From: Chloroflexota bacterium
Lineage (GTDB): Bacteria; Chloroflexota; Limnocylindria; Limnocylindrales; CSP1-4
DNA: 40,726 bases
Reading direction: 5' to 3'
NCBI GenBank assembly: GCA_003156975.1
Contig: PMIE01000082.1
Span: 1-40,726 of the forward strand
The notes under the pieces were generated by a model. It worked only from the letters and a program-made list of their open reading frames with translations. It had not been told where the DNA came from and searched no databases. The stretch's first letter is position 1. Every line of letters starts with the position of its first letter. Made by a program: the position numbers and the translations under genes. Of this stretch, positions 7,731-31,655 are shown piece by piece.

Positions 7731-7856
7731 TGCACCGACTCCTCGCCGACTTGTGTTCCCGTCAGCATATGGCGGCTCGCGCCGCGGCTCTCATCCCAGA
7801 GCGATAGCCGCGCCACGAGACTGGAAGGATAAGAGGGTCGACGGCCGCTGGGGCTC

Positions 7857-8288: not shown

Positions 8289-8329
8289 GTGTCGCTTCCT
8301 TCCAACTTCGTTGCCTTGCCGAGCGTTCC

Positions 8330-9388
8330 TCAGCCGGCCGACTGGTCCAGCTTGGAGCTTACAGAGTCGATCGCCGAACGCAACCGATCTGCGGCAACTT
8401 CGGCCGTGATGTCTCGCTGCGACTCCGACAGAAGCTCGTACCCCACCATGAACTTCCTGACCGTCGCGTGGAGGAGCGGTGGATAGAAATGGGCGTGAAG
8501 CTGCCAATGCGGCCTCTCGACGCCGTCGAACGGGGCCTGATGCCATCCCATCGAATACGGGAAAGGCGCGTCGAACAATCCGTCGTAGCCACGCAGCAAC
8601 TCCACGAGCCGGCCCGAGAGCAGGTCTCGCTGGCGATCGCCCAGCTCCGGCAGCCGCGAGACTGGTCGGCGGGGGATGACGAGTGTCTCGAATGGCCAGG
8701 CGGCCCAGAACGGCACGACCACGAGCCAGTCATCGTCGCTGCCCAGGTCCCTCGGTCCGCCGACTTCCTGCTCGGCATAGTCGAGCAGGAGGCTGCGACC
8801 GGTGGCTTCAAAGTAGCTGCGTTGGGTAGCTTCTTCCTTCTCTCCTTCGCGCGGAATGGCGCTGCCGGCCCAGATCTGTCCGTGCGGGTGAGGATTCGAA
8901 GCGCCCATCGCCGATCCGCGGTTCTCGAAGACCTGGACCCACGGAAAAGACTTGCCCAGAGTCTCGGACTGCGCGGACCAGAGGTCCACGACGGTTCTGG
9001 CCTGAGCGGCGCTCATCAGCGACAGAGTCAGGTCGTGGCGCGGCGAGAAGCAGATGACCTTGCAGGTGCCCTGCTCGCTTGACGCCCGCAGCAGCCCGTC
9101 CTCGAATGACGCCACCGGCGAGTCCGGCTGGAGTGCGGCGAAGTCGTTGGTGAAGACGAACGTTGATTCGTACCTGGGATTCTGCTCGCCGTTCGCTCGG
9201 GTGTTGCCGGGGCACAGATAGCAGGATGGGTCGTAGGCCGGCACGTCGGCCAAAGGCGGAGCCTCGGCCGAACCACGCCATGGTCGGCTCGTCCGTTCAG
9301 CCGAAACCAACAGCCATTCTCCCGTCAGCGCGTTATAGCGGCGATGGGGCCGCGATAGGAGAGCGGTCGCAGATAGGTCTTTGTTCAC
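8330..9388 (-). CDS. galT: Galactose-1-phosphate uridylyltransferase
   Basis: GalT exchanges UMP between UDP-glucose and galactose-1-phosphate in the Leloir pathway. The 352-residue protein has the zinc-binding CYLC at residues 56-59, and the active-site HPHGQ with His167-Pro-His169 and Gln171, in which His169 should carry the UMP. Other family blocks are ENRGSAMGASNPHPH, VVPFWAAWPFETLVIPRR and HFYPPLL. The start is GTG at 9388, which overlaps the stop of the upstream regulator by four bases (GTGA), so the two are translationally coupled. tatA follows 41 bases downstream. galE is not in the window, so the UDP-galactose epimerase must be encoded elsewhere. Confidence 0.96.
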   Translation of the reverse strand: MNKDLSATALLSRPHRRYNALTGEWLLVSAERTSRPWRGSAEAPPLADVPAYDPSCYLCPGNTRANGEQNPRYESTFVFTNDFAALQPDSPVASFEDGLLRASSEQGTCKVICFSPRHDLTLSLMSAAQARTVVDLWSAQSETLGKSFPWVQVFENRGSAMGASNPHPHGQIWAGSAIPREGEKEEATQRSYFEATGRSLLLDYAEQEVGGPRDLGSDDDWLVVVPFWAAWPFETLVIPRRPVSRLPELGDRQRDLLSGRLVELLRGYDGLFDAPFPYSMGWHQAPFDGVERPHWQLHAHFYPPLLHATVRKFMVGYELLSESQRDITAEVAADRLRSAIDSVSSKLDQSAG

Positions 9389-10287
9389 TCGGGCTCCCGG
9401 GACTTGTATGGACTGGCAGGGTCAACCCCCTCGCTCGTGATTGTCTGCACGTTGCCTGTCGCAACGTCCGCGAGCAGCAGCCGTCGGACCGCCGTCGTTA
9501 TCTGGCTGCAGGCCGAAGGGTCGAGGCCGGTGTCGGTGACGATTGTGTCGGCGTCTTCCAGCCGCGCTACCGAGCTGATGCCGACGACGCCCCATTTCGT
9601 ATGGTCCGCAAGGACGATCAGGCGTCGGCCTGCCTCGATCAGAGCTCGGTTCGTCTCCGCCTCGAGGATGTTAGGCGTCGTGAAGCCGGATCTCGGATCC
9701 ATCCCATGAATTCCCATGAAGACGCTGTCAACATGCAGCGACCGGATGAAATCGACTGTGAACGGTCCTACGAGTGCGTCGGAAAGGGTGCGAACACCGC
9801 CGCTGAGAATGACCGTCTGGTCCGGTCGGCCGTCCTTGTGGAGGACGTCTGCCACCGGCACCGAATTGGTCAGGACCGTCAGACCGGGAACGTCGGTGAG
9901 GTGTTTGGCAAGCTCGAAGGTCGTGGTTCCGGCCGAGATGGCGATCGCCGTTCCGGGCGTAACCAGGCTGGCGGCGGCGGCCGCGATCAGCGTCTTCTCG
10001 CTCTGCATGAGCGTTGACTTGATCGTGAACCCCGGCTCGAACTGGGAACTCCCCTCCACGGCCGTGGCGCCGCCGTGGACCTTCTCAATCAACCCGAGTT
10101 CGTTCAGAACCTCGAGATCGCGCCGGATGGTCATGTCCGAAACGCCCAGCGCGCGGACCAAATCTGCCACTCGAACCGCGCCCTCCTCGCGCACGCGTTC
10201 GAGAATCAGGGTCTGGCGCTGCCGTGCCAGTGCGGGCCTCCTGGCACTCGCATCCAGATCCTGCGGTGTCTCCACTACTCGCTCCAA
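9385..10287 (-). CDS. DeoR/GlpR-family transcriptional regulator of the galactose locus
   Basis: A 300-residue DeoR-family repressor. Residues about 23-80 form the winged helix-turn-helix, with RQTLILERVREEGAVRVADL and the recognition helix VSDMTIRRDLEVL followed by the wing motif KVHGGAT. The C-terminal DeoRC sugar-phosphate sensor contains ISAGTTTFELAKHL, ILSGGV, HGMDPRSGFTT and VLADHTKWG, all typical. Such proteins usually respond to a phosphorylated sugar; here galactose-1-phosphate or tagatose-phosphate would fit. The open frame begins at TTG (10287); the GTG at 10275 has a better-spaced GGAG and may be the true start. It is the first gene of the minus arm and divergent from the sugar-binding protein gene. 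Confidence 0.93.
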   Translation of the reverse strand: MERVVETPQDLDASARRPALARQRQTLILERVREEGAVRVADLVRALGVSDMTIRRDLEVLNELGLIEKVHGGATAVEGSSQFEPGFTIKSTLMQSEKTLIAAAAASLVTPGTAIAISAGTTTFELAKHLTDVPGLTVLTNSVPVADVLHKDGRPDQTVILSGGVRTLSDALVGPFTVDFIRSLHVDSVFMGIHGMDPRSGFTTPNILEAETNRALIEAGRRLIVLADHTKWGVVGISSVARLEDADTIVTDTGLDPSACSQITTAVRRLLLADVATGNVQTITSEGVDPASPYKSREPE

Positions 10288-10431
10288 TTCCTCGTGGGCC
10301 GTTCCTCTCCGGCGGATGGCGTGCCTACACCACCCCCTTCCAATGTTCTATTCGCTTGCAATCGTGCCGCCATCGAAGCCGAAAGTCAACCGATCCAACC
10401 AGAATCCAAAGGTTCCCAACGCTAAATCCCC

Positions 10432-10461
10432 TTGACAGTTGGAATGGCGCGGCCGGACAAT
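10432..10461 (+). promoter_or_regulatory. Sigma-70-like promoter of the galactoside transport operon
   Basis: A perfect -35 TTGACA at 10432-10437 is followed after 18 bases by GACAAT at 10456-10461, matching four of six bases of the -10. The expected transcription start is near 10468, about 60 bases before the sugar-binding protein gene. It lies within the 240-bp divergent region shared with the regulator gene. Confidence 0.6.
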
Positions 10462-10474
10462 CGCCCAGTCTTGT

Positions 10475-10491
10475 TGGTTCCTGTTGAACCA
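10475..10491. promoter_or_regulatory. Candidate operator palindrome
   Basis: TGGTTC at 10475-10480 and GAACCA at 10486-10491 form a perfect 6-bp inverted repeat with a 5-bp spacer, placed just after the predicted transcription start. This is the right position for repression, plausibly by the divergent DeoR-type protein. Related half-sites (GGTTC at 10411, CCAACC near 10395) lie upstream. Confidence 0.4.
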
Positions 10492-10529
10492 CGGCCGTTT
10501 ACGTGTCGTGGAGGGAGGAGTAACAGTTA

Positions 10530-11954
10530 ATGGCAGATCAAGAGAACCGCGCCGGCTTGCTCTCTGGTGGGCAGGTATCGAGGCGAGAGATCCTCAAGAA
10601 GGGCCTGATCGGCGCAGCCGGACTTACCGTGCTGCCGGCGGTCATCGCCGCGTGCAGTAGTAGCTCGACGGCTACATCCACCCCCGCCGCACCGGTTGCT
10701 ACGCCGGCCGGTGCCACGCCCCCGCCAGCGGCGACCCCGGCCGCGGCTACCGGCAAGGTCACCCTCGGGTCCAACCTCTCGGACGCCACGCCCAAGGCGG
10801 CCCTCGCTGCTGCGGTCGCCGCGTTCAATGTGGCGAACCCGGGCATCACTGTGACGACCAACACGATCGATCACAACACGTTCCAGACCACCCTCAATAC
10901 CTACCTTGGGGCAACGCCTGAGGACGTCATCACCTGGTTCTCCGGCTATCGCATGCGTGCGTTCGCCGATCAGGGCCTCTTCGTTGACATCTCCGACCTG
11001 TGGGCCGGCGCGACTGGCAAGCTGTACACGGACGCTGTCAAGACTGCGTGCACCTCGTACGACGGCAAGCAGTACATGATTCCGTTCGACACATACGCTT
11101 GGACGGTCTACTACGTTCCGAGCCTGTGGAAGGCCAAGGGATACACCGTCCCGACGACTCTCGCAGACTTCAAGACCCTCGCTGCCAAGATGAAGAACGA
11201 TGGCATCGTCCCGATTGGCCTCGGCCAGAAGGACGGATGGCCGGCCATGGGCACGTTCGACATCATCGACCTGCGCGAGAACGGCTACCAGTTCCACGTC
11301 GACCTGATGGCCGGCAAGAACAAGTGGACCGACCCGAAGGTTGCCAACGTCTTCAACGTTTGGAAGGACCTCCTTCCCTACTACCAGACCGGCGCCGCAG
11401 GCCGAAACTGGCAGGATGCCGTCAACGGCCTCCTCGCCAAGACCACAGGCATGATGCTTCAGCCTCAGGCCGTTCAGGTTGCCATCGAGCTTGAGAAGAC
11501 CAAGCCCGGCACTCTGGCCGACCTCGACTTCTTCTCTTGGCCGGGCCACGGGAAGGGCTTCGATGACGAGGCTGCTCTCGACGCGCCGATCGACGGGTTC
11601 ATGCTCGCCAAGAACTCGCCGAACCTCGCCGCGGACACGGCCAGCGCCAAGACGCTGCTCGCGTTCTTCGGTCTGGGCGCTACCCAGGGCATCTACGCCA
11701 AGGCCGACTCGAGCCTCATCGCTGTTGCGAGCGACGCGGACACCAGTGGCTACACCGCGCTTCAGAAGAAGCAGGTCGCAGTCATCGGCGCCGCCAAGAA
11801 GCTCACTCAGTTCCTTGACCGCGACTCCAACCCGGCCTTCACCGGCCCCAACGGCATGGGCAGCTTCCTGATCGACTTCCTCTCGAAGCCGGACCAGGAT
11901 CTGACCCCGTTCCTGGCGAAGATCCAGGCCTTCCAGGACTCCCTGGGCTCCTAG
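10530..11954 (+). CDS. CUT1 sugar ABC transporter substrate-binding lipoprotein with Tat signal
   Basis: Extracytoplasmic sugar receptor, 474 residues, of the carbohydrate uptake 1 family. The N terminus reads VSRREILKKGLIG, a twin-arginine motif (Arg18-Arg19) close to the S-R-R-x-F-L-K consensus, followed by a mild hydrophobic region and the lipobox VIAAC, with Cys42 for lipid attachment. A Ser/Thr/Ala/Pro-rich linker of about 30 residues tethers the mature domain to the membrane. The mature domain has FNVANPGITVTT and PEDVITWFSGYRMRAFADQG, typical of extracellular solute-binding family 1. AGGAG lies nine bases before the ATG. Two permease genes follow. It should export folded via Tat, whose genes lie just across the promoter region. 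The linked galactosidases suggest raffinose-, melibiose- or lactose-like ligands. Confidence 0.93.
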   Translation: MADQENRAGLLSGGQVSRREILKKGLIGAAGLTVLPAVIAACSSSSTATSTPAAPVATPAGATPPPAATPAAATGKVTLGSNLSDATPKAALAAAVAAFNVANPGITVTTNTIDHNTFQTTLNTYLGATPEDVITWFSGYRMRAFADQGLFVDISDLWAGATGKLYTDAVKTACTSYDGKQYMIPFDTYAWTVYYVPSLWKAKGYTVPTTLADFKTLAAKMKNDGIVPIGLGQKDGWPAMGTFDIIDLRENGYQFHVDLMAGKNKWTDPKVANVFNVWKDLLPYYQTGAAGRNWQDAVNGLLAKTTGMMLQPQAVQVAIELEKTKPGTLADLDFFSWPGHGKGFDDEAALDAPIDGFMLAKNSPNLAADTASAKTLLAFFGLGATQGIYAKADSSLIAVASDADTSGYTALQKKQVAVIGAAKKLTQFLDRDSNPAFTGPNGMGSFLIDFLSKPDQDLTPFLAKIQAFQDSLGS

Positions 11955-11998
11955 GCCTGATCTAAGCCATTCAATCCTCGTAGTCTTTGAGCGGTTTG

Positions 11999-13093
11999 AT
12001 GCCTGACAAAGCAGCATCTGCGGCCGCCTCCGTCCAGCCCGGTGACCCCGGGCTGGCGGGGGCGGCTGTCACTCCTTCTACGCGCCTGTTTGATCGGTTC
12101 CCCTTCAACCGGATGCCGTTCATCGGGCGCCAGCGGTGGCACCTTCTGACACGCCGAGACAAGTTTGTTCTGGCGTTGATGGTGGGCATCCCGCTCGTAC
12201 TCGATATCGCCCTGATATGGGGGTCGATCGTCGTCGATTTCCTGTGGTCCCTCACGGACTGGCACGGAAACGGCGCTATCACAGGGGGCGGGGTAGGGCA
12301 CCAGTACGTCGGCCTGAACAACTACGGCCAGCTCTTCACTGGAACTTACCCGTTCTTCTGGACGGCGGCCTTGCACAACGTGTTCTGGCTGGCCTTCCTC
12401 ATGTTCGTGGCCACACCGCTGGGCATTCTGATGGCGGTGATCCTCGATGGACACATCAAGGGCATGGCCTTCTACCGGACCGTCTTCTACCTGCCGGTCG
12501 TGCTCTCCCTTGCCCTCGTCGGCATCATCTGGCAGCTGCAATACGCGCCGGACTGGGACCGCGGCTTCATAAACGGCACGTTGCACTTCTTCGGCTACCA
12601 GGTGCCACTCATCAAGGACATTCCGTTTGTGGGCAAATGGTTCCGGGACGTATCTACGACGGACTGGGTGGGCGGTCCGCTGTCCATCATTCCCACTGTC
12701 ATCGCGGCTACCTGGCGCCACGTGGGTTACGTCACGATCCTCTATCTGGCAGGCCTGAAGGGCTTTGACCCGACGCTCCGGGAGGCTGCCGCGATTGACG
12801 GCGCCAATTCCCGGCAGACCTTCTTCAAGGTCGTGTTCCCGGTGATGAAGCCCATCAACATCATGATCGTGGTGATCACGACGATCGAAGCCCTGCGTGC
12901 GTTCGATCTCGCCTTCATCACGAATGGCGGCCGCAGCCCCTTGGAGTTGCTGTCGACCCTTATTACCAACAACGCCCTTAGCGAATCGACCCGCATTGGG
13001 TTCGGCTCGGCGATCGCCGTCATTCTTGCGATCGTCTCGCTGGTCCCGATCGTGATCTTCCTGGCGATGACGATGCGTGAGGAGAAGAAGTGA
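11999..13093 (+). CDS. CUT1 sugar ABC transporter permease 1
   Basis: MalF/UgpA-type inner-membrane subunit, 364 residues from the ATG at 11999 (an in-frame TTG at 11987 is possible). After a long polar N terminus of about 60 residues it has helices starting at FVLALMVGIPLVLDIALIW and continues with the binding-protein-dependent transport fold. The EAA loop that docks the ATPase reads EAAAIDGANSRQTFFKVVFPVMKP in shortened form EAAAIDGA...FPVMKP, with the invariant Gly. A periplasmic insertion of about 50 residues lies between the third and fourth helices (around GYQVPLIKDIPFVGKW). It overlaps the second permease by four bases (GTGA). No ATPase gene accompanies the pair. Confidence 0.93.
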   Translation: MPDKAASAAASVQPGDPGLAGAAVTPSTRLFDRFPFNRMPFIGRQRWHLLTRRDKFVLALMVGIPLVLDIALIWGSIVVDFLWSLTDWHGNGAITGGGVGHQYVGLNNYGQLFTGTYPFFWTAALHNVFWLAFLMFVATPLGILMAVILDGHIKGMAFYRTVFYLPVVLSLALVGIIWQLQYAPDWDRGFINGTLHFFGYQVPLIKDIPFVGKWFRDVSTTDWVGGPLSIIPTVIAATWRHVGYVTILYLAGLKGFDPTLREAAAIDGANSRQTFFKVVFPVMKPINIMIVVITTIEALRAFDLAFITNGGRSPLELLSTLITNNALSESTRIGFGSAIAVILAIVSLVPIVIFLAMTMREEKK

Positions 13094-14154
13094 GCGACGC
13101 CGAATCCACACCCGGCGCCGCCTTCACGCCCGGCGTCGCACCAAGCGAAGAGGCTGCCAGAGCTCGCGCTAAGGACATGCCGTTCGACCTAATCGACGCT
13201 TCCGACGCGGCCGCGAAGGATCGCGAAACAGCTAGTGCCACGGAACGAGCCCTCGCCCGTGGAGCCGTGCTGAAGCGGAAGCGCGGTGGGATCAAACCCC
13301 GTCGCGTGGGGCTATACGCGTTCCTGGTGACGATCACCTTCATCTGGATGATGCCGTTGCTGGTCGCGGTGTACGAAGCCCTGCGCACGAACGGGGACGT
13401 GATCCAGAACGGCATATTCTCGCTGCCCCATGGTCTGACTCTCGACAACTTCATAACAGCTTGGGGCAGCACGACACCAGACTTCCCGCAGGCCTACGCG
13501 AACACGCTGATAGTCACGATACCGTCGGTGATCATCGTGCTCCTCATCGGGTCGATGGTTGCGTACGCCGTCTCAAAGTACAGCTGGCGCGCCAACCTGC
13601 TCGTCCTCATGATCTTCACCGCAGGAAACCTGCTGCCTCAACAGGCCATCATCCTGCCGATGTACCGCCTCTTCAGCACGCACCTGTTGCCGTGGCCTTT
13701 CACTGACAACGGGGGCACCCTTCTATACAACCAGTACATCGGGCTCATCTTCATCCACGTCCTGTTCCAGTTGGGCTTCGTCGTCTTCGTGCTCAGCAAC
13801 TACATGAAGACGCTGGGCACCGAGATCATCGAGTCTGCCCTGGTGGATGGCGCCGGCGTGGTCAGGATCTGGGCCAGCATCGTCATGCCGCTCTGCAAGC
13901 CCGCAGTCGCGGCAATGGCGACTCTGGAGTTCACGTTCATCTACAACGACTTCTTCTGGGCTCTCACATTGATGTCGACTCAGGACAAGCGGCCCATCAC
14001 CGCTGCCCTGAACACGATCCAAGGCCAGTACTACACCAACTACAACCTTCTCGCGGCGGCCGCTCTGTTGGCCGCAGTCCCAACGGTTCTGGTGTTCCTG
14101 GCCTTGCAGCGCTACTTCGTCAGCGGCCTGACGCTTGGTTCCACCAAGGGCTAG
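13090..14154 (+). CDS. CUT1 sugar ABC transporter permease 2
   Basis: MalG/UgpE-type subunit, 354 residues, starting at GTG coupled to the stop of permease 1. The first 75 residues are charged and Ala-rich and unusually long for this subunit, which normally starts near the first helix (here LYAFLVTITFIWMMPLLVAV). Six helices follow. The EAA motif is ESALVDGAGVVRIWASIVMP, with Asp-Gly conserved, and the C terminus ends with RYFVSGLTLGSTKG, the common R-Y-F/L-V-x-G-L-x-x-G-A/S-x-K-G tail of the family. Together with permease 1 it forms the channel for the oligosaccharide delivered by the Tat-type lipoprotein. Confidence 0.94.
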   Translation: MSDAESTPGAAFTPGVAPSEEAARARAKDMPFDLIDASDAAAKDRETASATERALARGAVLKRKRGGIKPRRVGLYAFLVTITFIWMMPLLVAVYEALRTNGDVIQNGIFSLPHGLTLDNFITAWGSTTPDFPQAYANTLIVTIPSVIIVLLIGSMVAYAVSKYSWRANLLVLMIFTAGNLLPQQAIILPMYRLFSTHLLPWPFTDNGGTLLYNQYIGLIFIHVLFQLGFVVFVLSNYMKTLGTEIIESALVDGAGVVRIWASIVMPLCKPAVAAMATLEFTFIYNDFFWALTLMSTQDKRPITAALNTIQGQYYTNYNLLAAAALLAAVPTVLVFLALQRYFVSGLTLGSTKG

Positions 14155-14202
14155 CCGGCCGAGATCCTTTGCGCTGCGTTCCAACGGGCGACGAGTATTC
14201 TC

Positions 14203-14232
14203 AAAGGCGGACGACGAAAGTCGTCCGCCTTT
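14203..14232 (+). terminator. Perfect 13-bp hairpin with GAAA tetraloop
   Basis: The arms AAAGGCGGACGAC and GTCGTCCGCCTTT pair without mismatch around a GAAA tetraloop, a very stable combination. Only three U residues end the right arm and CAACTC follows, so it is a weak intrinsic terminator at best. In an operon it may partially stop transcription or protect the 3' end of the transporter mRNA, so transporter and glycosidase levels differ. It ends 27 bases before the alpha-galactosidase start. Confidence 0.75.
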
Positions 14233-14259
14233 CAACTCTCCGGACCAGGTGGGAGCACG

Positions 14260-19612
<5,353 letters not shown>

Positions 19613-20814: not shown

Positions 20815-21177
20815 ATGGCTGCCAGGACGATCCGCGACTTCCAGGTGGGAGCCGACATTACGCCCGTCGTCGACGCGTGGGCGCAGGCAAACCACTATGG
20901 GTTCCGGGGCCTCTCGCCGGACGGCACCCGCAACTACCAGCGCGGCAACGGGCTCCTTACCGGGGCGATGCCATTCTCGTTCCGGCAGGCCGGTTCCTCG
21001 GTTCACATCGAGGCCTGGATCCACGCCAATCTCATGGCCCGCATCAGTGCCCTCTTCCTGATCCCGACCGACATGGGTGTCGACTCGGGCGGTGTCCGGG
21101 GCATCATCCCGCGCACCGTCGCCCGGGACTCCGTGAACAAGCTCCTGGCGCAGCTCGGTCAGCCGCCGATCGCATAG
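20815..21177 (+). CDS. Conserved-looking 120-residue protein of unknown function
   Basis: I do not recognise this protein. The ATG follows GGGAGGAG at a good distance. It starts MAARTIRDFQVGADITPVVDAWAQ and has an aromatic stretch (NHYGFRGLSPDG), then TGAMPFSFRQAGSSVHIEAWIHAN, which suggests beta strands of a small alpha/beta domain, and ends with a helix SVNKLLAQLGQPPIA. There is no signal peptide or clear membrane helix, though MARISALFLIP is mildly hydrophobic. Codon use resembles its neighbours. The last codons and the stop are part of a 14-bp tandem repeat that continues past the gene. Confidence 0.65.
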   Translation: MAARTIRDFQVGADITPVVDAWAQANHYGFRGLSPDGTRNYQRGNGLLTGAMPFSFRQAGSSVHIEAWIHANLMARISALFLIPTDMGVDSGGVRGIIPRTVARDSVNKLLAQLGQPPIA

Positions 21178-21210
21178 CGCCGATCGCATAGCGCCGATCG
21201 CATAGCGCCG
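21164..21210. repeat. 14-bp tandem repeat spanning a stop codon
   Basis: The unit CGCCGATCGCATAG occurs three times in a row (21164, 21178, 21192) with a partial fourth. The first copy encodes the last residues and TAG stop of the 120-residue protein. Because the unit contains a stop and is not a multiple of three, the added copies do not alter the protein. It looks like a recent slippage duplication. Confidence 0.85.
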
Positions 21211-21248: not shown

Positions 21249-22304
21249 GTGAGCGAAACCGCCGGAACCCATCTTCTAGTCGACTGCGACACCGGCATCG
21301 ACGACAGTCTGGCCTTGCTGTACGCGGTCGCCTCGTCCGAGTGCGATCTCGTCGCCGTCACCTGCACCGCCGGAAATGTGGATGCGCGGCAGGTCGCGGA
21401 GAACACTCGGGCCGTGCTCGAGCTGGCCGGCCGGCCGGACGTTGAAGTCGCGATCGGGCGCGAGACGCCACTGGCACGAGCGCTGGTCACGACTCCCGAG
21501 ACGCATGGGTCTCGTGGCATCGGCTATGCCGAGCTGCCGCCCGCAACGAAGCCGCTCTCCCCGCGCTACGGCCCGGACCTGATAGTCGAGGAGGCACGCC
21601 GCCGTCCCGGAGAGCTGACGCTGGTCACGCTGGGCCCGCTGACGAACGTAGCCCTGGCCGTTCTGCGCGAACCCGAGTTGCCACGACTTCTGCGAGGCCT
21701 GGTGATCATGGGCGGCAGCTACCGCTCGCCGGGCAACACGGCGCCCACAACGGAGTGGAACGTCAACGTCGACCCCGAGTCGGCGAAGATCGTCTTCGAG
21801 GCCTTCGGGCCGAGGCAGGTCGACTCGCGAGCCTCGACCGCCGAACCGACGGACTCGACCCATCCCACTCGACCGACTGCGCTCGGGCTCGATGTCACCG
21901 AGCGGGCCAGGATGCTGCCCGAGCACCTCGCCGCGCTGGCGGCCCGGGCGGGCTGTGCTCCGGACGGAACCCGCCCGGATGGCACGGTCAATCCGATCGT
22001 CCGCTACCTCGCCGACGCCCTGCGGTTCTATATGGAGTTCCACAGCCGCTATGACGGCTTCTACGGCGCCTTCATCCACGACCCGCTCGCGCTCGCGACG
22101 GCACTGGATCCGACGCTGGTGCGGACGGAGCCACTCACCGTCGACGTGGAGTTGGGCGGGCGCCTCACCACGGGCGAGACCGTGACGGACTGGCGGCGCG
22201 TGTGGGGCCGGCCGCCTAACGTTGATGTAGCCGTGGAGGCGGACTCGACCCGCTTCATGGCCCGTTTCATCGAACGGGTGGGGGACCTGGCCGCGCGGCG
22301 TTAG
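21249..22304 (+). CDS. Nucleoside hydrolase (IunH family)
   Basis: A 351-residue N-ribosyl hydrolase that splits a nucleoside to base and ribose. The calcium-binding signature is VDCDTGIDDSLALL, with Asp12, Asp14, Asp18 and Asp19; GLVIMGGSY and EWNVNVDPESAKIVFEA are the middle motifs, and IHDPLALATAL carries the catalytic His-Asp pair near the C terminus. An insertion rich in Ser, Thr, Pro and Asp (about residues 190-215) interrupts the region after the NVDPE motif and is not typical. The start is GTG with AGGATG upstream. The adjacent ECF importer suggests a nucleoside-type substrate coming from outside. The true base specificity is not predictable from motifs. Confidence 0.9.
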   Translation: MSETAGTHLLVDCDTGIDDSLALLYAVASSECDLVAVTCTAGNVDARQVAENTRAVLELAGRPDVEVAIGRETPLARALVTTPETHGSRGIGYAELPPATKPLSPRYGPDLIVEEARRRPGELTLVTLGPLTNVALAVLREPELPRLLRGLVIMGGSYRSPGNTAPTTEWNVNVDPESAKIVFEAFGPRQVDSRASTAEPTDSTHPTRPTALGLDVTERARMLPEHLAALAARAGCAPDGTRPDGTVNPIVRYLADALRFYMEFHSRYDGFYGAFIHDPLALATALDPTLVRTEPLTVDVELGGRLTTGETVTDWRRVWGRPPNVDVAVEADSTRFMARFIERVGDLAARR

Positions 22305-22440
22305 TGCTCCGAGCCCGTGGCCCCGGCGCGGCGCAGCGGGCGAGCCTCCAGTGGCGCCCAGCCTGCAGACCTGGCAAGCTGTCGCAGCGCGGCACCCGTT
22401 CATCCGACCTGGCCGCGTTCCGTACAGGAGAGCAGGAGAG

Positions 22441-23337
22441 ATGGGTCTACTACGCCGCTGGGTAGCTCGCCAGTTCACAACCCGAGTAATCGTTCTGATG
22501 CCGGTGGCGATTGCCATCAACATCGTTCTTGGCTACACCGTCCAGAGTGGTCTGAAGCTCCCGATCTACGTCGACTCCATCGGCACGATTCTCGTGGGCG
22601 TGCTCGGCGGGCCCCTGCCCGGCATGTTCACAGGCGCTCTGTCGGACTTGATCTGGCAATACGCACCCGGAATCGGCCCCGGGTCGCAGATCGGTCCGTT
22701 CGCGATCACCGCCGCCGTCATCGGTCTGCTGGCCGGCCTGTGGGGCCAGCTGGGTCTGTTCAGGCCCCGCCGCGGCCACGCCCTGAACACCGCCGCTGCC
22801 GTTGTGGCCGTGGTCCTGATCGGCGCCATGGCGCTATACACCTACAGCCGGGCATTCTCCAGCCCGGACCAGTTTGCCAATGCCGCCTTCAAGGACCCGA
22901 GCGCATTCGACCAGTCGCGGTTCTTCTTCCTGGTCGTGATGGCGGTCTTCGTGGTCCTCGTCGGCTGGGCGCTGGTGCTGCGCCGCGACGTCGGCGCCGT
23001 TTTCGCGATCAGCGCCGGTCTCTTCACCGGCATCGTGGCTGCGGTGGTCTCCGCGCCCATTTACGCGTTCTTCTACGGCGGCCTTTCCGGCAGCGGCACG
23101 GATGCGATCGTCGCCGCCTTCCGGGCCGGCGGCGACAGCCTCTACCAGTCCACGCTCAAGCAGGGCCTCCTGTCGGACCCGATCGACAAGATGATCACGA
23201 CTTTCGTGGTCTTCTTCCTCGTCGGCAGCCTGTCGCGTCGCTTCGTTGCCCGCTTCCCCAACGGCGAGAAGCTCATTGGGCCCGACGCTGAGCCCGACGC
23301 CGAGCCAGAAGCCGAGCCCGCAGGCGAGGCGAGCTAG
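22441..23337 (+). CDS. ECF transporter substrate-binding (S) component
   Basis: Membrane protein of 298 residues from the ATG at 22441, preceded by GGAGAG. It contains helices beginning VIVLMPVAIAINIVLGY, then PIYVDSIGTILVGVLGGPLPGMFTGALSDLIW, shown here as YVDSIGTILV and GALSDLIW, a pattern common to ECF S-components in which the loop after helix 2 lines the substrate pocket. It is longer than the usual 180-200 residues, with a large loop (SRAFSSPDQFANAAFKDPSAF) and an acidic Pro/Glu/Ala tail. S, T, A and A' genes follow in order, forming a complete group I importer. Nucleoside hydrolase context suggests a nucleoside-related or base-related ligand, an inference from position only. Confidence 0.85.
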   Translation: MGLLRRWVARQFTTRVIVLMPVAIAINIVLGYTVQSGLKLPIYVDSIGTILVGVLGGPLPGMFTGALSDLIWQYAPGIGPGSQIGPFAITAAVIGLLAGLWGQLGLFRPRRGHALNTAAAVVAVVLIGAMALYTYSRAFSSPDQFANAAFKDPSAFDQSRFFFLVVMAVFVVLVGWALVLRRDVGAVFAISAGLFTGIVAAVVSAPIYAFFYGGLSGSGTDAIVAAFRAGGDSLYQSTLKQGLLSDPIDKMITTFVVFFLVGSLSRRFVARFPNGEKLIGPDAEPDAEPEAEPAGEAS

Positions 23338-23343
23338 CCCCGC

Positions 23344-24159
23344 GTGACGCCACCCTCGCTTGCCCCCACCGCGGCCGGCTTCGGCCTGCCCGACTACGTC
23401 ACTCGCCGGCCGAGTGGTTTCTATCGCTCGCTCAACCCGGCCACCAAGCTGGCAGTGGCGGCTCTGGAGGTCGTGGCCGCCTTCACGATCTCCGGCTGGC
23501 TGGGACCGGCGCTCGTGCTCGCCACGCTGGCGGCAACCGCGGCCGGCTCCCGGACCCTGCGCGGGTTGATGGTCGTTGGGCTGGCGGCCTTGCCGCTGGT
23601 CGTCTCGATCATGGTCGTGAACCTGTTCCTGCTGCCCGGCGCCTCGGACCCGATTGCCCATGTCGGGCCGCTCGCGCCAACGTGGAGCGGACTGCGGTTC
23701 GGGCTGCTTACTGCCGCGCGGCTGCTGGCGTTCTCGTCGGCGGTGGCGCTGGCCTACCTGACCACGCCCGTCGACGACCTGCTGGCCGACATGTCGCGTC
23801 GCGGCCTCGGCCGGCGAGGCGTTTTCGTTGTCGGCGCGGCGGTGCAGATGGTGCCGCGGACCATCGAACGGGTCGGGGAGATCATGGATGCCCAGCGTGC
23901 CCGCGGCATGGATACGGAAGGGCGGATCTGGCGGCGGGCGCGAGGCGTCGTCCCGCTGGCGGCACCGGTCGTCTTCGGTGCGTTGGCCGAAGTCGAGGAG
24001 CGGACGATGGCCCTGGAATCGCGGGCATTCACGGCGCCGGGTCGCCAGACGCTGCTTCGAACTCCGCCGGATCGAACGATCGATTCGGTGCTGCGCTGGC
24101 TCGCGCTCGCAGGAGTGCTGGCCATCGTCGCGCTGCGGCTGACCGGCAGGATCGGCTGA
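23344..24159 (+). CDS. ecfT: ECF transporter transmembrane coupling protein EcfT
   Basis: A 271-residue coupling subunit linking the S-component to the two ATPases. The two cytoplasmic coupling motifs are recognisable as AQRARGMDTEG (the classic Ala-Arg-Gly motif) and ALESRAFTAPGRQT (the second, with Ser-Arg-Ala instead of Ala-Arg-Gly). Several helices precede them, for example FTISGWLGPALVLATLAA and LVVSIMVVNLFLL. The start is GTG six bases after the S-component stop. A final helix (LALAGVLAIVALRLTG) closes the protein. It overlaps nothing; the next gene begins three bases later. Confidence 0.92.
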   Translation: MTPPSLAPTAAGFGLPDYVTRRPSGFYRSLNPATKLAVAALEVVAAFTISGWLGPALVLATLAATAAGSRTLRGLMVVGLAALPLVVSIMVVNLFLLPGASDPIAHVGPLAPTWSGLRFGLLTAARLLAFSSAVALAYLTTPVDDLLADMSRRGLGRRGVFVVGAAVQMVPRTIERVGEIMDAQRARGMDTEGRIWRRARGVVPLAAPVVFGALAEVEERTMALESRAFTAPGRQTLLRTPPDRTIDSVLRWLALAGVLAIVALRLTGRIG

Positions 24160-24161
24160 CG

Positions 24162-24977
24162 ATGGCGATCGAGCTTGAGTCTGCCCGGTATCGATACGCG
24201 GGCTCGGGGTCGGCGGCCCTGGGACCGATCGAGCTACGCGTCGAGCCGGGGCGCGTGCTGGGCGTGGCCGGCGCGAATGAATCGGGCAAGTCCACGCTCT
24301 GCGTCGTTGCCGCCGGAGTCGCTCCCGCGGTCATTGGCGGCAAGCTCGATGGATCGGTGCGGATCGACGGCGTGGACGCGGCGACGCTCCGGCCGCACGA
24401 ACTTGCGCAACGCTGCGGCCTGTTGTTCCAGCACGCCCATACGCAGCTCAGCCACACCACCGCCACGGTGTTCGAGGAAGTGGCGTTTGGGCCGTGCAAC
24501 CTTGGCCTGCCTGTGGCGGAAGTGGCCGAACGAGTCTGGTGGGCGCTCGGCGCAGTCGGCGTGGAGGGCCTTGCGCCGCGCGACCCGGCGCGCCTCTCCG
24601 GCGGGCAGGGGCAGCTCGTTGCGCTCGCGTCGGTGCTGGCGCTGCGGCCGAAGTACCTGATCCTCGATGAGCCGACGAGCGAGCTGGATCCGGCCGGAAC
24701 TCGGCTCATCGCCGATGCGCTGGTGCGGGTCGCGGCCGAAACCGGTGCCGGCATCCTCCTGGTCGAGCACAAGCTCGACGTCCTTGCTCATATCGCCGAC
24801 GAGGTCGTCGTCCTGGAGCGCGGCTCCGTGGCGCTCGTCGGCCAGGCGGCGGCGGTTCTCGCCGATCCTCGACTGGCGGAGTTGGGGGTCGAGCCGCCGG
24901 CCGGCGTGCGCCTCGAGCGGGCCGTTCGAGACTCCGGCGTGGAGTGGACGGCTTCAATGTCCGAGTCGATCCGATGA
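24162..24977 (+). CDS. ecfA: ECF transporter ATPase, first copy (canonical signature)
   Basis: ATPase of 271 residues from the ATG at 24162; the frame is open upstream but that part is a shadow of ecfT. Walker A is GANESGKST, the Q-loop LLFQHAHTQLSHTTATVFEEVAFGP has the ECF-typical phrase VFEEVAFGP, the signature is ARLSGGQGQLVALASVLAL and Walker B YLILDEPTSELD, with switch His in LLVEHK. All catalytic elements are intact. The last base of the stop overlaps the next ATPase start (ATGA). It powers uptake together with the second, more divergent ATPase. Confidence 0.94.
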   Translation: MAIELESARYRYAGSGSAALGPIELRVEPGRVLGVAGANESGKSTLCVVAAGVAPAVIGGKLDGSVRIDGVDAATLRPHELAQRCGLLFQHAHTQLSHTTATVFEEVAFGPCNLGLPVAEVAERVWWALGAVGVEGLAPRDPARLSGGQGQLVALASVLALRPKYLILDEPTSELDPAGTRLIADALVRVAAETGAGILLVEHKLDVLAHIADEVVVLERGSVALVGQAAAVLADPRLAELGVEPPAGVRLERAVRDSGVEWTASMSESIR

Positions 24978-25831
24978 CCTCTCCCGATTCGGCCGCGCCG
25001 GCTCCCTCGATCGAATTCGCCTCCGTCTCGTTCGCCTATCCCGACGGCACTCGGGCACTGACCGACGTGGAGCTGCGCATCCAGCCCGGCGAGTCTCTCG
25101 CCATCGTCGGGCAGAACGGCTCGGGCAAGTCGACTCTGGTCCGGCATATCAACGGCCTTCTTCGCCCCGCCACCGGCCGGGTGCTCATCGACGGTCGAGA
25201 CATCCGGCAGACGCACGTCGCCAGGCTGGCCGGATTGGTCGGGCTTGCGTTCCAGAATCCCGATCGCCAGCTTTTCGCCGGAAGCGCCTCCGCGGAAGTC
25301 GCATTCGGCCCGCGCAATCTTGGGCTGCGTGGGAGCGCGTTGGAGGCGCGGGTTCGGGAAGCGCTGGAGGACGTCGGTCTGGGCGAGGAGACGGCCACGA
25401 ACCCCTACGACCTCGGCTACTCGCGCCGCAAGCTGCTGGCGCTGGCGTCGGTCCTGGCGATGCGGACGCCGATCCTGATCCTCGATGAACCGACCACGGG
25501 CCAGGATGCGCGGGGAGTGGCTCGGGTTCGTGGCGTCGTCGCGAGGGCGGCCGGCGAGGGGCGGACGCTGATCGCCATCAGCCACGACATGCGCTTTGTC
25601 GCGGAGTCGTTCCGGCGAGTGGTGGTCATGCGGGCCGGGCGTGTGGTCCTGGATGGGGCGCCGGACGCGGTGTTTGCCGAAACCGCGTGGGGCGCGCTCC
25701 GAGCCGCGTATCTCGAGCCGCCGCTGCCGGCCGTGGCCGGGGCGCGGCTTGGTCTTGGCGCTACGCCGACGGACGGCGAATTCGTGGCGGCGCTGGAGGT
25801 GGCGACTCCGCCCCGAACTCAGAACAGGTAG
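24974..25831 (+). CDS. ecfA: ECF transporter ATPase, second copy with degenerate signature
   Basis: A 285-residue ATPase starting at ATG 24974 by four-base overlap; the frame is open from 24944. Walker A is GQNGSGKST, the Q-loop FQNPDRQLFAGSASAEVAFGP is typical, and Walker B is LILDEPTTGQD with the H-loop ISHD. The LSGGQ signature is replaced by LGYSRRKLLALASV, so Ser-Gly-Gly is lost while Ser-Arg-Arg-Lys occurs at its place. Some ECF ATPase groups carry such S-x-R/E-R-K variants. The pair therefore probably has one canonical and one degenerate nucleotide site. An acetate-kinase gene follows nine bases on. Confidence 0.93.
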   Translation: MTSPDSAAPAPSIEFASVSFAYPDGTRALTDVELRIQPGESLAIVGQNGSGKSTLVRHINGLLRPATGRVLIDGRDIRQTHVARLAGLVGLAFQNPDRQLFAGSASAEVAFGPRNLGLRGSALEARVREALEDVGLGEETATNPYDLGYSRRKLLALASVLAMRTPILILDEPTTGQDARGVARVRGVVARAAGEGRTLIAISHDMRFVAESFRRVVVMRAGRVVLDGAPDAVFAETAWGALRAAYLEPPLPAVAGARLGLGATPTDGEFVAALEVATPPRTQNR

Positions 25832-25840
25832 CCTAGCCCG

Positions 25841-27025
25841 ATGCGTGTTCTCGTCCTGAACCCAGGGTCCAGCTCGCTCAAGTCGAGCGTGATCGAGACG
25901 TCGACGATTCCCGTCGCCGGGCTCAACGGCATCTTGCCCGCCCCGCCGGCGGCGTCGATGGCGCCGCTGGGTCAGATCGACGTGGACTGGGGCGTGGACG
26001 CGACCGCCGGGGGCGACCCTGCCGACGACATCCGCGCCCTCGTCGCCGAGTACGAAGCCGCGGGCATCTCGACGGCCTCCTTGGGTGCGGTTGGATATCG
26101 CGTCGTCCACGGCGGCGCCATCTTCCGCCAGCCGGTGCGAGTGACGCCGGAAGTGATCGGACAGGTAACGGCGCTGCGGGATCTGGCGCCGCTCCACAAT
26201 GGCGTTGCCGCGGCCACGATGACCGCCGGACTCGCTGCCATCCCACGCCTGCCTCACGTGGCCGTCTTCGATACCGCCTTCCACGCGACACTGCCGGAAG
26301 ACGCATACCGCTACCCCGTACCGGAGCAGTGGTATCGGGAGTGGGGCATGCGCCGCTACGGCTTCCACGGCATGTCGGTGGCGTGGTCGGCCGAGCGCGC
26401 CGCCGCGCTCCTGGCCCGTCCCGTCGGGGAGCTGCGAACGGTGGTCGCGCATCTGGGCAGCGGCTGCTCGGTGACCGCCGTGGACGGCGGCCGCTCCGTG
26501 GCCACTTCGATGGGCATGACCCCGCTCGAGGGTCTGATGATGGGGACGCGGGCAGGGTCGATCGATCCGGGGATCATCTTCTACCTGCTCCGCACCGGCC
26601 GCCTCGGCACCGACGAGCTGGCCGAGCAGCTGGACCACGACTCGGGACTCGTCGGCGTCTCCGGCCGGACCTCCGACGTCCGAGAGCTGCTCAAGCTCGA
26701 GGCGGCGGGCGACGAGCCGGCGGCGCTGGCACTCCAGATCTTCGTGCGGCGCGCGGCCGAGTGCATCGCTGCCGCGGCCACCTCGCTCCCGACCCTGGAC
26801 GCCATCGTCTTCACGGGTGGGATCGGCGAGAACGCCGCCGGGCTGCGAACTCGGATCACGGGCCGGCTTGCGGCCATCGGCGTGGCGGCCGTCTCAGACG
26901 CGGCAATCGCCGAAGACGGTCTGCTGTCGGCCGGCGGCTCACCGGCGGTGCTGCGGATCGTGGCTCGCGAGGACCTGGTCGTCGCCCGAGAGGCTGCTCG
27001 AATTGTGGGCAGCGGCCCCGGCTGA
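25841..27025 (+). CDS. ackA: Acetate/propionate-kinase family protein
   Basis: Kinase of 394 residues interconverting acyl-phosphate plus ADP and acid plus ATP. N-terminal NPGSSSLKSS gives Asn7, Ser10, Ser12 and Lys14. Further motifs are VVHGGAIFRQP, APLHNGVAAA, FDTAFHATLP, RRYGFHGMSV, VAHLGSGCSV, TPLEGLMMGTRAGSIDPG and FTGGIGEN. The Arg in GTR and the catalytic His of FHG are kept, but GDIDPA of typical AckA reads GSIDPG and GTSH reads GMSV, as in the broader acetate/propionate kinase group. An insertion near residues 20-50 lengthens the N-terminal part. Acyl specificity is open. It is the last gene of the nucleoside-hydrolase/ECF run, and pta is not present. Confidence 0.9.
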   Translation: MRVLVLNPGSSSLKSSVIETSTIPVAGLNGILPAPPAASMAPLGQIDVDWGVDATAGGDPADDIRALVAEYEAAGISTASLGAVGYRVVHGGAIFRQPVRVTPEVIGQVTALRDLAPLHNGVAAATMTAGLAAIPRLPHVAVFDTAFHATLPEDAYRYPVPEQWYREWGMRRYGFHGMSVAWSAERAAALLARPVGELRTVVAHLGSGCSVTAVDGGRSVATSMGMTPLEGLMMGTRAGSIDPGIIFYLLRTGRLGTDELAEQLDHDSGLVGVSGRTSDVRELLKLEAAGDEPAALALQIFVRRAAECIAAAATSLPTLDAIVFTGGIGENAAGLRTRITGRLAAIGVAAVSDAAIAEDGLLSAGGSPAVLRIVAREDLVVAREAARIVGSGPG

Positions 27026-28484: not shown

Positions 28485-29741
28485 TCAGTGGTCGAAAACG
28501 CGGGCGACTTCCCGCAGACCGACGGCCAGAGCGTCGATCTCCTCGGGAATCGTGTAGACGTTGAAGCTGGCCCGGGCCGTGGCCGCAAGATCGAAGCGTT
28601 CGTGGAGCGGCATGGTGCAGTGGTGCCCGGCACGGACGCAGATTCCCGAGCGGTCCAGGATCTGGGCCACGTCATGGGGATGTATGCCCGGCAGGTTGAA
28701 GGCCACGACTCCGCCTCGCGCGTCCGCCTGCGGCCCATACAGTTCGATCCCGGGGACCTCGCGCCGCAGCGTTTCCAGGGCGTAGCGTGCCAGTTCTTGC
28801 TCGTGTGCTCGGACGTTGTCCATGCCCAGCGCCATCAGGTATTCCGCGGCGGCGCCCATGCCGATCTCCGCTGAAATGTCCGGCGTGCCGGCCTCGAACT
28901 TGTAGGGGATCTCGTTGAAGTCGGACCGGCGGAGGTGGACCTCGCGGATCATGTCGCCGCCGGCCATGAAGGGCGGCATCGCCTCGAGCAGCTCGCGCCT
29001 CGCCCACAGCGCGCCCGAGCCCGTGGGCCCGAGCATCTTGTGTCCGGAGAACACGTAGAAGTCGGCCCCGATCGCCTGGACGTCCACCGGCAAGTGAGGG
29101 GCGGCCTGCGCGCCGTCGATCAGGACGAGCGCCCCGGCGGCGTGAGCCATCTCGGTCAGCTGGCGGACGGGGTTGATCGTCCCGAGCATGTTCGAGACGT
29201 GGGTGAATGCCACGAGCTTAGGGTTCAGGTGGAGCAGCGCCTCGTAGACCTCGAGCTGCAACAGGCCTTCGTCTGTGATCGGGATGAACTCGAGATCGCC
29301 GTCCTTCTCCTGGACCAGGATCTGCCACGGCACGAGGTTGGCGTGATGTTCCATCTCGGTCAGGACGATGGTGTCGCCGCGGCCGATGTTGCGCCGACCC
29401 CACGAATAGGCGACGAGGTTGATCGCCTCCGTGGCGTTGCGGACGAAGACGATCTCGGCGGCTTCCGGCGCGTTGATCAGCCTGGCGGTGGAGGCGCGGG
29501 CGGCCTCGTATGCGCCGGTCGCCCGCTCGGCGATTTCGTAGATGCCCCGATGGATGTTGGACGAGTACCTGGTGTTGTAGCCGTCCACGGCCTCGATCAC
29601 GGCCCGCGGCTTGAGGCTGGTGGCGGCGCTGTCGAGATAGATGAGTGGCTTGCCCAGGCGGTTGACCGTGGTCAGGATCGGGAAGTCCTTGCGGATCCGG
29701 GCGACGTCCAGCGGCGTGGAGGGGGCGGCGATATCGGCCAT
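28485..29741 (-). CDS. sufS: Cysteine desulfurase SufS
   Basis: PLP enzyme of 418 residues that takes sulfur from cysteine as a persulfide. LDSAATSLKP near residue 36 starts the fold; EMEHHANLVPW near 129 binds PLP, DGAQAAPHLPVD near 209 holds the cofactor Asp, and GHKMLGPTGSG carries the Schiff-base Lys235. The persulfide cysteine is Cys375 in VRAGHHCTMPLHERF, the short-loop group II (SufS) arrangement. The start at ATG 29741 is the family norm. The gene lies ten bases downstream of the sufC stop and ahead of sufU; sufB and sufD are not here. Confidence 0.96.
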   Translation of the reverse strand: MADIAAPSTPLDVARIRKDFPILTTVNRLGKPLIYLDSAATSLKPRAVIEAVDGYNTRYSSNIHRGIYEIAERATGAYEAARASTARLINAPEAAEIVFVRNATEAINLVAYSWGRRNIGRGDTIVLTEMEHHANLVPWQILVQEKDGDLEFIPITDEGLLQLEVYEALLHLNPKLVAFTHVSNMLGTINPVRQLTEMAHAAGALVLIDGAQAAPHLPVDVQAIGADFYVFSGHKMLGPTGSGALWARRELLEAMPPFMAGGDMIREVHLRRSDFNEIPYKFEAGTPDISAEIGMGAAAEYLMALGMDNVRAHEQELARYALETLRREVPGIELYGPQADARGGVVAFNLPGIHPHDVAQILDRSGICVRAGHHCTMPLHERFDLAATARASFNVYTIPEEIDALAVGLREVARVFDH

Positions 29742-29751
29742 CTCTGCCCGC

Positions 29752-30705
29752 CTAGCGGGCGGCCTCCACTACCGGTCCGGCCACCTCGGGCGCCTCGCCC
29801 GCAGGAGCCTCGCCCGCAGGAGCCTCGCCCGCAGGAGCCTCGCCCGCAGGAGCCTCGCCCGCAGGAGCCTCGCCCGCAGGAGCCTCGTCCCCGACGCCCT
29901 CGAGTCCGGCCGCGGCCAGGATCGGCGCGTAGCCCTCCTCTTCCAGGCGCAGGGCCAGGTCCTTGCCGCCGCTGAGGATGATCCGGCCGGCTGCAAGAAC
30001 GTGGACGACATCCGGCTTGATGTAGTCCAGTAGCCGCTGGTAGTGGGTTATCACCAGCACGCCCATGTTCGGATTGAGCATCGCGTTGACGCCTTCGGCC
30101 ACGATGCGAAGAGCATCGATGTCAAGGCCGGAGTCGGTCTCGTCGAGGATCGCCATCTCGGGCTGCAGGACCGCCATCTGGAGCATCTCGAGGCGCTTCT
30201 TCTCGCCGCCCGAGAACCCTTCGTTGACGTAGCGAGCCGCGATCGACTCGTCCATCTTGAGAAGGGCCATCTTCTCCTTGACGAGCTTTCGGAACTCGCC
30301 CATCGGGATGCCGCCGCGGAAGGCGTCGGTCGGGTCGATCGTGGGGTCGGGCGTCAGCCCGGAGCGGCGAGCGTTTATCGCCGAGCGCAGGAAGCTCGCC
30401 ACCGACAGCCCGGGAATGGCCATCGGGTACTGGAAGGCGAGGAACATCCCCAGCCGGGCACGCTTGTCGGCCGAGAGCTTCAGGAGATCGTGGCCCTGCC
30501 AGAGAACCTCGCCGGACTTGATGATGTATGCCGGATGGCCCATCAGGGCGTAGGCGAGCGTCGTCTTGCCGGAGCCGTTCGGGCCCATGATGGCGTGAAC
30601 CTCGCCCTTGCGAACGGTCAGATCGATCCCCTTGAGGATCTCGTGATCGGGCTTCGCCGCGGGGGCCACGTGCAGGTCGCGGATGACGAGGTCTTGGTCG
30701 CTCAC
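29752..30705 (-). CDS. sufC: Fe-S assembly ATPase SufC with repeat tail
   Basis: A 317-residue SufC, the ABC-type ATPase that normally acts with SufB and SufD. GTG at 30705 is the start (MSDQDLVIRDLHV), with AAGGAG about 12 bases upstream. Walker A is GPNGSGKTT, the Q-loop AFQYPMAIPGL is the SufC type, the signature is NEGFSGGEKKR and Walker B AILDETDSGLD, followed by the switch ITHYQRLL. All are standard through about residue 250. A tail of roughly 55 residues follows, with six Gly-Glu-Ala-Pro-Ala repeats coded by a 15-bp tandem array, absent from normal SufC (about 250 residues). The partner proteins are missing from the operon. Confidence 0.93.
   Translation of the reverse strand: MSDQDLVIRDLHVAPAAKPDHEILKGIDLTVRKGEVHAIMGPNGSGKTTLAYALMGHPAYIIKSGEVLWQGHDLLKLSADKRARLGMFLAFQYPMAIPGLSVASFLRSAINARRSGLTPDPTIDPTDAFRGGIPMGEFRKLVKEKMALLKMDESIAARYVNEGFSGGEKKRLEMLQMAVLQPEMAILDETDSGLDIDALRIVAEGVNAMLNPNMGVLVITHYQRLLDYIKPDVVHVLAAGRIILSGGKDLALRLEEEGYAPILAAAGLEGVGDEAPAGEAPAGEAPAGEAPAGEAPAGEAPAGEAPEVAGPVVEAAR
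29797..29886. repeat. Six perfect 15-bp tandem repeats in sufC
   Basis: GCCCGCAGGAGCCTC repeats six times in exact register. On the minus strand each copy encodes Gly-Glu-Ala-Pro-Ala. Perfect identity at the DNA level, including third positions, indicates recent expansion by slippage. Because the unit is five codons, copy-number changes keep the frame. Confidence 0.95.
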
Positions 30706-30743
30706 GTTGCTCGGTTGCTCCTTGGTCGGGTGGCGGTGTTCGC

Positions 30744-31268
30744 TCAGTCGAGCGGGAGAGGGCCGGCGGCACCGGACGCCAGTTTCGTCTTCGCGCCGAG
30801 GGCCGGCAGGCTGCCCACGCGCCCGGCCACGGGCACGAGATCGGCCAGCGTCATCGAGTCGAGCGCGCCGGAGATGGCGTCGCGGACCCGAACCCACATG
30901 AAGTTGACGGTGCAGTGGCCGCTGCGCGCGCAGGTCAGATGAGTTGGATCGTCGGTCACGCAGATCATCGGCGCGATCGGCCCTTCCAGCGCTCGCAGAA
31001 CCTCGCCCATGACGATCTCTTCCGGAGGGCGAGTCAGCTCATAGCCGCCGTGGGCGCCCCGGGTGCTCTGCACCAGTTCCGCGTCGCGGAGGCTGATGAC
31101 CAGCTGCTCTAGGTAGGCCCGCGGCAGGTCTTCCTGCTCGGCGATCTCGGTCAGGCTGGCCGGCCCGGTGCCGTGGCGCCGCGCCAGCTGGGCCATCAGG
31201 CGCACGCCGTACTCGCCCTTCGTGGAGAAGGAGACGGCGCCGGTGCTGTGGTAGGTCCTTGTGGCCAG
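30744..31268 (-). CDS. Rrf2-family regulator, likely Fe-S sensing
   Basis: An Rrf2-type winged-helix regulator of about 174 residues, upstream of sufC. The Rrf2 signature runs from FSTKGEYGVRLMAQLA to LPRAYLEQLVISLRDAELVQSTRGAHGGYEL. Cys103, Cys113 and Cys119 in the stretch ICVTDDPTHLTCARSGHC suggest cluster ligands; the first spacing (nine residues) is longer than in IscR. No ATG, GTG or TTG exists in frame between the likely transcription start (about 31359) and the domain, but CTG at 31268 has AGGAG seven bases ahead, so I place the start there. The frame is open to 31418. It is probably an autorepressor and regulator of suf. Confidence 0.88.
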   Translation of the reverse strand: MATRTYHSTGAVSFSTKGEYGVRLMAQLARRHGTGPASLTEIAEQEDLPRAYLEQLVISLRDAELVQSTRGAHGGYELTRPPEEIVMGEVLRALEGPIAPMICVTDDPTHLTCARSGHCTVNFMWVRVRDAISGALDSMTLADLVPVAGRVGSLPALGAKTKLASGAAGPLPLD

Positions 31269-31342
31269 TGTCGAGCTCCTGTGGTGCGGCGGTCGATCCT
31301 CGGCGGCGCGGCGCTCGGGTGAGCTCGTGCGGCCATTCCAAT

Positions 31343-31361
31343 TCCGACCTAACCCGTCGGA
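31343..31361. promoter_or_regulatory. Inverted-repeat operator at the Rrf2 transcription start
   Basis: TCCGAC and GTCGGA form a perfect 6-bp inverted repeat with a 7-bp spacer, covering the expected transcription start of the Rrf2-suf promoter. Rrf2 proteins bind such dyads and this position would block transcription, so autoregulation is likely. Confidence 0.5.
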
Positions 31362-31365
31362 TATC

Positions 31366-31393
31366 AGTATAGGCGCGCCAAATCGGGTGTCAA
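31366..31393 (-). promoter_or_regulatory. Strong sigma-70-like promoter for the Rrf2-suf operon
   Basis: On the minus strand a perfect TTGACA (31393-31388) is separated by 16 bases from TATACT (31371-31366), five of six matches to the -10. Transcription should begin near 31359, which shows that the upstream part of the open frame is not translated. Confidence 0.7.
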
Positions 31394-31655
31394 ACGCTCC
31401 GAGGACGCTCGCCACCACTACTCGCCACCACTCGCCGATGCGCGCGCTAATGCTCGCGCGAGGCTCCCTTCACGCCGGCACGGTGTCGCGCAGGGCGGCT
31501 CTACGCAATTCGTCGGCGTTGACCAGTCGCGGGGCTGCGATGTACGGTCTTTGTCTGCTCTCTGGTGCAGTCGCGCCTCGGAGGGACGTCAACCGTGAGC
31601 CATGGGTCCCAGTTGCCAGGGTGCCCACTCACGTAATGCTCGACGGAGGAGTCGC
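31394..31655. other. Divergent intergenic region between Rrf2 and subtilase genes
   Basis: The gene-free gap from 31269 to 31655 holds the Rrf2 leader, its promoter and operator, and the subtilase promoter. The part from 31394 to 31500 shows no tRNA, repeat or conserved motif that I can identify, only GC-rich short palindromes such as CTCGCGCGAG. Confidence 0.6.
31519..31548 (+). promoter_or_regulatory. Possible promoter of the subtilase gene
   Basis: TTGACC at 31519-31524 is followed after 18 bases by TACGGT at 31543-31548, with five of six and three of six consensus matches. It would give a leader of about 100 bases. Confidence 0.4.

Follow-up and report, generated by a model that had tools for sequence, protein, structure and literature searches.

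The window (the whole stretch of 40,726 nucleotides analysed here) contains six genes in one direction on the forward strand between positions 21249 and 27025, encoding in order an IunH-type nucleoside hydrolase, the S, T, A and A' components of an ECF transporter, and a protein of the acetate kinase family. This arrangement raises the question of what the transporter imports, and whether the hydrolase and the kinase act on it. The initial annotation read the locus as nucleoside salvage, possibly of queuosine. The features are listed in Table 1.

Table 1. Features of the hydrolase–ECF–kinase unit, with positions in the window.
Feature	Position	Strand	Size and start	Basis
IunH-type nucleoside hydrolase	21249..22304	+	351 aa, GTG start	PF01156 7.6e-90
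ECF S-component	22441..23337	+	298 aa	NF045596 3e-28, 98.6 bits
Lineage-specific S insert, ~80 residues (about 107-183)	22759..22989	+		motif spacing, hydropathy, model
ECF T-component	23344..24159	+		PF02361 CbiQ 8.9e-22; ARG at residues 186 and 199
ECF A ATPase	24162..24977	+		TIGR04520 3.7e-54; Walker A, LSGGQ intact
ECF A' ATPase	24974..25831	+		TIGR04521 2.7e-64; signature degenerate (LGYSRRK)
Acetate/propionate-family kinase	25841..27025	+		PF00871 5.7e-107; TIGR00016

The gene order is as originally described, although the statement that the transporter genes follow the hydrolase at once is slightly strong, since a gap of 136 bases separates the hydrolase gene from S. The S and T genes are separated by 6 bases, T and A by 2, and A' and the kinase by 9, and A and A' share a 4-base ATGA overlap. 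The reading frame of S is counted from the ATG behind CAGGAGAG. We infer that the hydrolase, ECF and kinase genes form a single transcript. Scans of the sequence for sigma-70 promoters and terminators gave nothing above chance. Just 5' of the hydrolase gene there is a perfect 14-base tandem repeat, consisting of 3.4 copies of CGCCGATCGCATAG (21164-21210). Upstream (6525-19612) lies a galactoside-use cluster encoding GalK, GalT, a DeoR regulator, an ABC permease, GH36 and LacZ, and downstream (28485-31418) a Suf-type cluster encoding a SufS-type aminotransferase, an ABC ATPase and an Rrf2 regulator. The genome is 2.78 Mb in size, in 153 contigs and about 85% complete, and the gene absences described below rest on incomplete genomes.

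For the comparison of gene order, 20 regions of the class Limnocylindria were fetched. We refer to the family of the window as f1, to the sister family, Candidatus Aquidulcis (placed by NCBI in Chloroflexota, Candidatus Limnocylindria), as f2, and to a second family that carries the block as f5. The order IunH-S-T-A-A' recurs in most of the f1 genera fetched and in f5, and since the genes are kept together to this extent the unit represents more than a chance association. The hydrolase gene is nearby but in the opposite orientation in two f1 genomes (L039 and L040). Across the class (177 genomes), S was matched in 114 genomes and IunH in 140, with neither among the class-wide matches in f3 and f4. 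Within f1, IunH is present in 87 of the 88 genomes that have S versus 14 of the 19 that do not, a co-occurrence that is explained in part by the adjacency of the two genes, because a lost contig removes both. The pairing is also not exclusive, as some f1 genomes contain several further IunH genes. The block usually stands alone in f1; in f5 its conserved neighbours are acyl-CoA carboxylase-type genes, which are uninformative. In one genome (G062) a gene for a BmpA/PnrA-type nucleoside-binding protein directly follows the block (L047:6247-7347).

The transporter genes have the composition of an ECF transporter with its own, dedicated module: the genes for all four components lie together, the T-component contains two ARG coupling motifs, and both ATPases contain Walker A and Walker B motifs. 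The replacement of LSGGQ in A' is shared by its counterparts across the clade. Because A' lacks the standard signature while A has it, it is probable that the two ATP sites are not equivalent.

The S-component matches no Pfam family. Its match to the NCBIfam family NF045596 (CD3073) falls in two separated stretches and lies below the curated cut-off of 180 bits, which is reached by no genome of the class. It shares with this family the motifs LP-[IVT]-[YF]-x-D-[SMT]-IGT, GG.[TS]G..[ST]D and DK, together with genes for a private T-A-A' module; it differs in its score, in its insert, and in its linkage, which is to IunH and not to phosphorylases. On these grounds it appears to be distantly related to the CD3073 family, short of formal membership. 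Classification of the S-component speaks against the comparison originally made with QrtT systems, giving the CD3073 match and none to QueT or QrtT; the QueT family PF06177 was not found in the genome, and the Pfam family given for QrtT is PF12822 (PMC11130926). FolT-type S-components show a weak resemblance. A Foldseek search with the model of S gave weak fold matches to RibU, PanT and ThiT only, none with an E value below 0.001, and we rejected these matches as too weak for a substrate call. A literature search for “CD3073” found nothing, and one for nucleoside-specific ECF systems gave nothing relevant.

The large size of the S-component, remarked on in the initial annotation, is real, and its cause is a lineage-wide insert that adds two hydrophobic segments. 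The distance between two of the S motifs is 165–186 residues (256 in one sequence) in the inserted clade, which comprises f1 and f5 sequences, and 89–99 residues in the others. Hydropathy places the hydrophobic segments at residues 114–132 and 162–180, and AlphaFold predicts helices at 114–137 and 158–180 with low confidence (pLDDT about 50–60). Arginines flank the insert on both sides (FRPRRG before and LRRD after), which suggests a hairpin entered from the cytoplasm. Such a conserved two-segment insert would extend an ECF S-component in an unusual way. The inserted and uninserted clades have about 30% identity and are separated by a long branch, and one uninserted sequence (L111) is placed inside the inserted clade with modest support.

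The hydrolase contains the motifs DCDTGIDD and HDP, and an HG histidine in the β3–α3 loop. By these motifs it is a structural group I enzyme, the group that contains the non-specific and pyrimidine-specific nucleoside hydrolases (PMC8910321). It is the only IunH copy found in the genome. The nearest PDB sequences are the Leishmania and Crithidia IU-NH and E. coli RihA, with which it shares the catalytic motifs; it differs from them in an extra linker after about residue 188, and its substrate is a prediction. Among curated hydrolase models, RihA and UriH matched best, both below cut-off. In the tree, the closest IunH outside f1 is that of Aquidulcis, in a locus that also contains phosphorylase, PfkB kinase, Qng1 and ECF genes, and the f5 IunH forms a different and more distant branch.

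The kinase scores 345.5 bits against TIGR00016 (cut-off 293.4), identifying it as an acetate/propionate kinase, and no second PF00871 gene was found in the genome. The family and the spacing first reported for it were correct, and its tie to the unit proved to be confined to one genus: each of the six regions fetched from the window's genus (L032–L037) has it as the next gene 3' of A', no more than about 1.1 kb away, and in the other f1 genera fetched no kinase lies beside the block in the same direction. It probably joined the unit at the level of this genus. We speculate that it could recover ATP from ribose breakdown. A phosphoketolase or pentose-breakdown neighbour was considered as an explanation for the kinase and rejected, none being present among the neighbours scanned (L047, L049 and the window genes).

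A scan of named genomes located the uninserted S clade in Anaerolineae, in Actinomycetota (including Microbacteriaceae and Actinomarinales) and in Rhizobiaceae. Its neighbours include PNP_UDP_1 phosphorylases, PfkB kinases, MFS carriers, nucleoside deoxyribosyltransferase, DeoC and IunH. In Aquidulcis a neighbour of the uninserted S is Qng1, and the locus also includes IunH, phosphorylase and PfkB genes. These loci in Aquidulcis and Actinomarinales resemble the window in combining a related S, IunH and ECF genes in one locus, and differ in containing Qng1 and phosphorylase genes and in lacking the insert in S. The theme common to the uninserted clade appears to be nucleosides, and queuosine would fit as one among them. 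Of 29 uninserted-S genomes scanned, 13 have no tgt, including the isolates Salinibacterium soli and Actinopolymorpha alba; the remaining tgt-bearing genomes outside Actinomarinales have Val-type TGTs. Five Actinomarinales loci (L154, L156, L157, L158 and L161) contain Qng1 and IunH in tandem near ECF genes, and the TGTs from three of these genomes read GGLAIGE or GGLALGE, which differ from both the Val and the Gly type.

On balance we favour the view that the unit is a general ribonucleoside import-and-hydrolysis system, with queuosine a possible cargo. The S-component would bind an extracellular nucleoside, the T-A-A' module would move it across the membrane using ATP, and the cytoplasmic hydrolase would split it into base and ribose for salvage; queuosine could be one such nucleoside. 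The nucleoside salvage first proposed for this locus is supported by the conservation of the block, by the hydrolase linkage and by the neighbours of the S clade. The linkage to the hydrolase, together with the phosphorylase, ribokinase-family, deoxyribosyltransferase and Qng1 neighbours of the related clade, leads us to infer that S carries nucleosides. The weakest step is the extension of the nucleoside role from the uninserted to the inserted clade: a shift of substrate may have occurred, because the phosphorylase-rich neighbourhoods belong to the other clade and the f1 block has few companions. For the CD3073 S family, hitherto without an assigned substrate, the neighbourhoods suggest a substrate class, namely nucleosides.

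The genome contains tgt, with flanking genes that read as recA and ruvB. No queA was found in it or in any f1 or f2 genome, so that every f1 or f2 genome with tgt is without queA; queA was found in 19 f5 genomes, one f3 genome and one f4 genome. The TGT pocket reads GGLAGDE in all f1 and f2 TGTs read, in agreement with the signature GG[LS][AS]G of queuine-inserting, salvaging TGTs (PMC11570991), whereas the TGTs of the queA-bearing f5 have GGLSVGE, GGLSVGET or GGLAVGG, with Val at the pocket position. The presence of tgt without queA and this TGT pocket are as expected for direct queuine salvage, and because the TGT looks queuine-inserting and no queA was found, the organism would need queuine from outside. 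Searches of the window's genus detected no QPTR, QueT or Qng1; QPTR is present in f2 and some g5 genomes, QueT gave three weak or marginal hits in f4 and f5, and Qng1 occurs only in f2 and in four genomes of f1. Neither of the known queuine transporters (QPTR or QueT) was found in the window's genome, which is about 85% complete, or across the genus. From this gene content it is very likely that the window's family needs queuine and is without known importers among those searched, and the unit is a concrete candidate for a missing step in its queuine nutrition.

There is a parallel in the C. difficile queK-qrtT-queL operon (PMC11477304), where a nucleoside hydrolase gene also adjoins an ECF S-component gene, and where there is a queuine need like that proposed here. 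The window's hydrolase has the IunH fold and intact catalytic motifs, as a QueK-type enzyme would. The two systems differ in that the window's S lies outside QueT/QrtT by Pfam, in that an Rfam scan found no preQ1 or other riboswitch, and in that the window's unit carries its own T-A-A' genes. The queuine-type TGT of this organism would make a queuine lyase (QueL) unnecessary. A unit dedicated to queuosine salvage, in which S imports queuosine or queuine, the hydrolase acts like QueK and the TGT inserts the queuine, would account for tgt without queA, for the TGT pocket, for the missing QPTR, QueT and Qng1 in the genus, and for the distribution of Qng1 in Aquidulcis given below. We nevertheless consider such a dedicated function unlikely. 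The S-component is not QueT or QrtT, there is no preQ1 riboswitch, f5 keeps the block despite having queA and Val-type TGTs, and related S and hydrolase clusters occur in genomes without tgt. Nor did the expected co-occurrence of the cluster with tgt across relatives materialise: within f1 there is no association between S and tgt (p = 0.44), 16 genomes having tgt and no detected S, and we rejected this co-occurrence as evidence for queuosine. In favour of the queuosine proposal stand the presence of tgt, the lack of queA, the queuine-type TGT and the failure to detect QPTR, QueT or Qng1 in the genus.

It is also conceivable that S imports some other riboside or base, for example a cofactor precursor, on which the hydrolase acts. 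The f1/f5 S clade is distinct, with a unique insert, and the resemblance to FolT-type S-components points the same way, but the block showed no cofactor gene and the hydrolase has the motifs of an ordinary group I enzyme, and we regard this as quite improbable. Still less credible is that the hydrolase and kinase simply adjoin the ECF genes and do not act on the imported substrate: the restriction of the kinase to one genus and the gap between IunH and S would suit this, but the conservation of IunH-S-T-A-A' across two families speaks against it.

Going beyond the general ribonucleoside system that we favour, CD3073-type ECF transporters might be further queuosine or queuine importers that replace QPTR in Limnocylindria, with the inserted S and IunH of f1 forming a complete direct queuine-salvage unit for the queuine-type TGT; we put this forward as a rather unlikely but specific proposal. 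Among the 19 f2 genomes, a CD3073-type S is found in 8 and QPTR above cut-off in 7, with no genome having both, for which the chance is 0.0065 if the two are independent. Qng1 is present in 7 of the 8 genomes with S and in all 7 with QPTR (14 of 15). TGT similarity suggests that the QPTR genomes are one lineage, so the split may reflect a single replacement event, and the value of 0.0065 does not represent many independent tests. The Aquidulcis genomes (G107–G125, about 1 Mb) each contain 2 to 9 IunH genes, a heavy investment in nucleoside hydrolysis.
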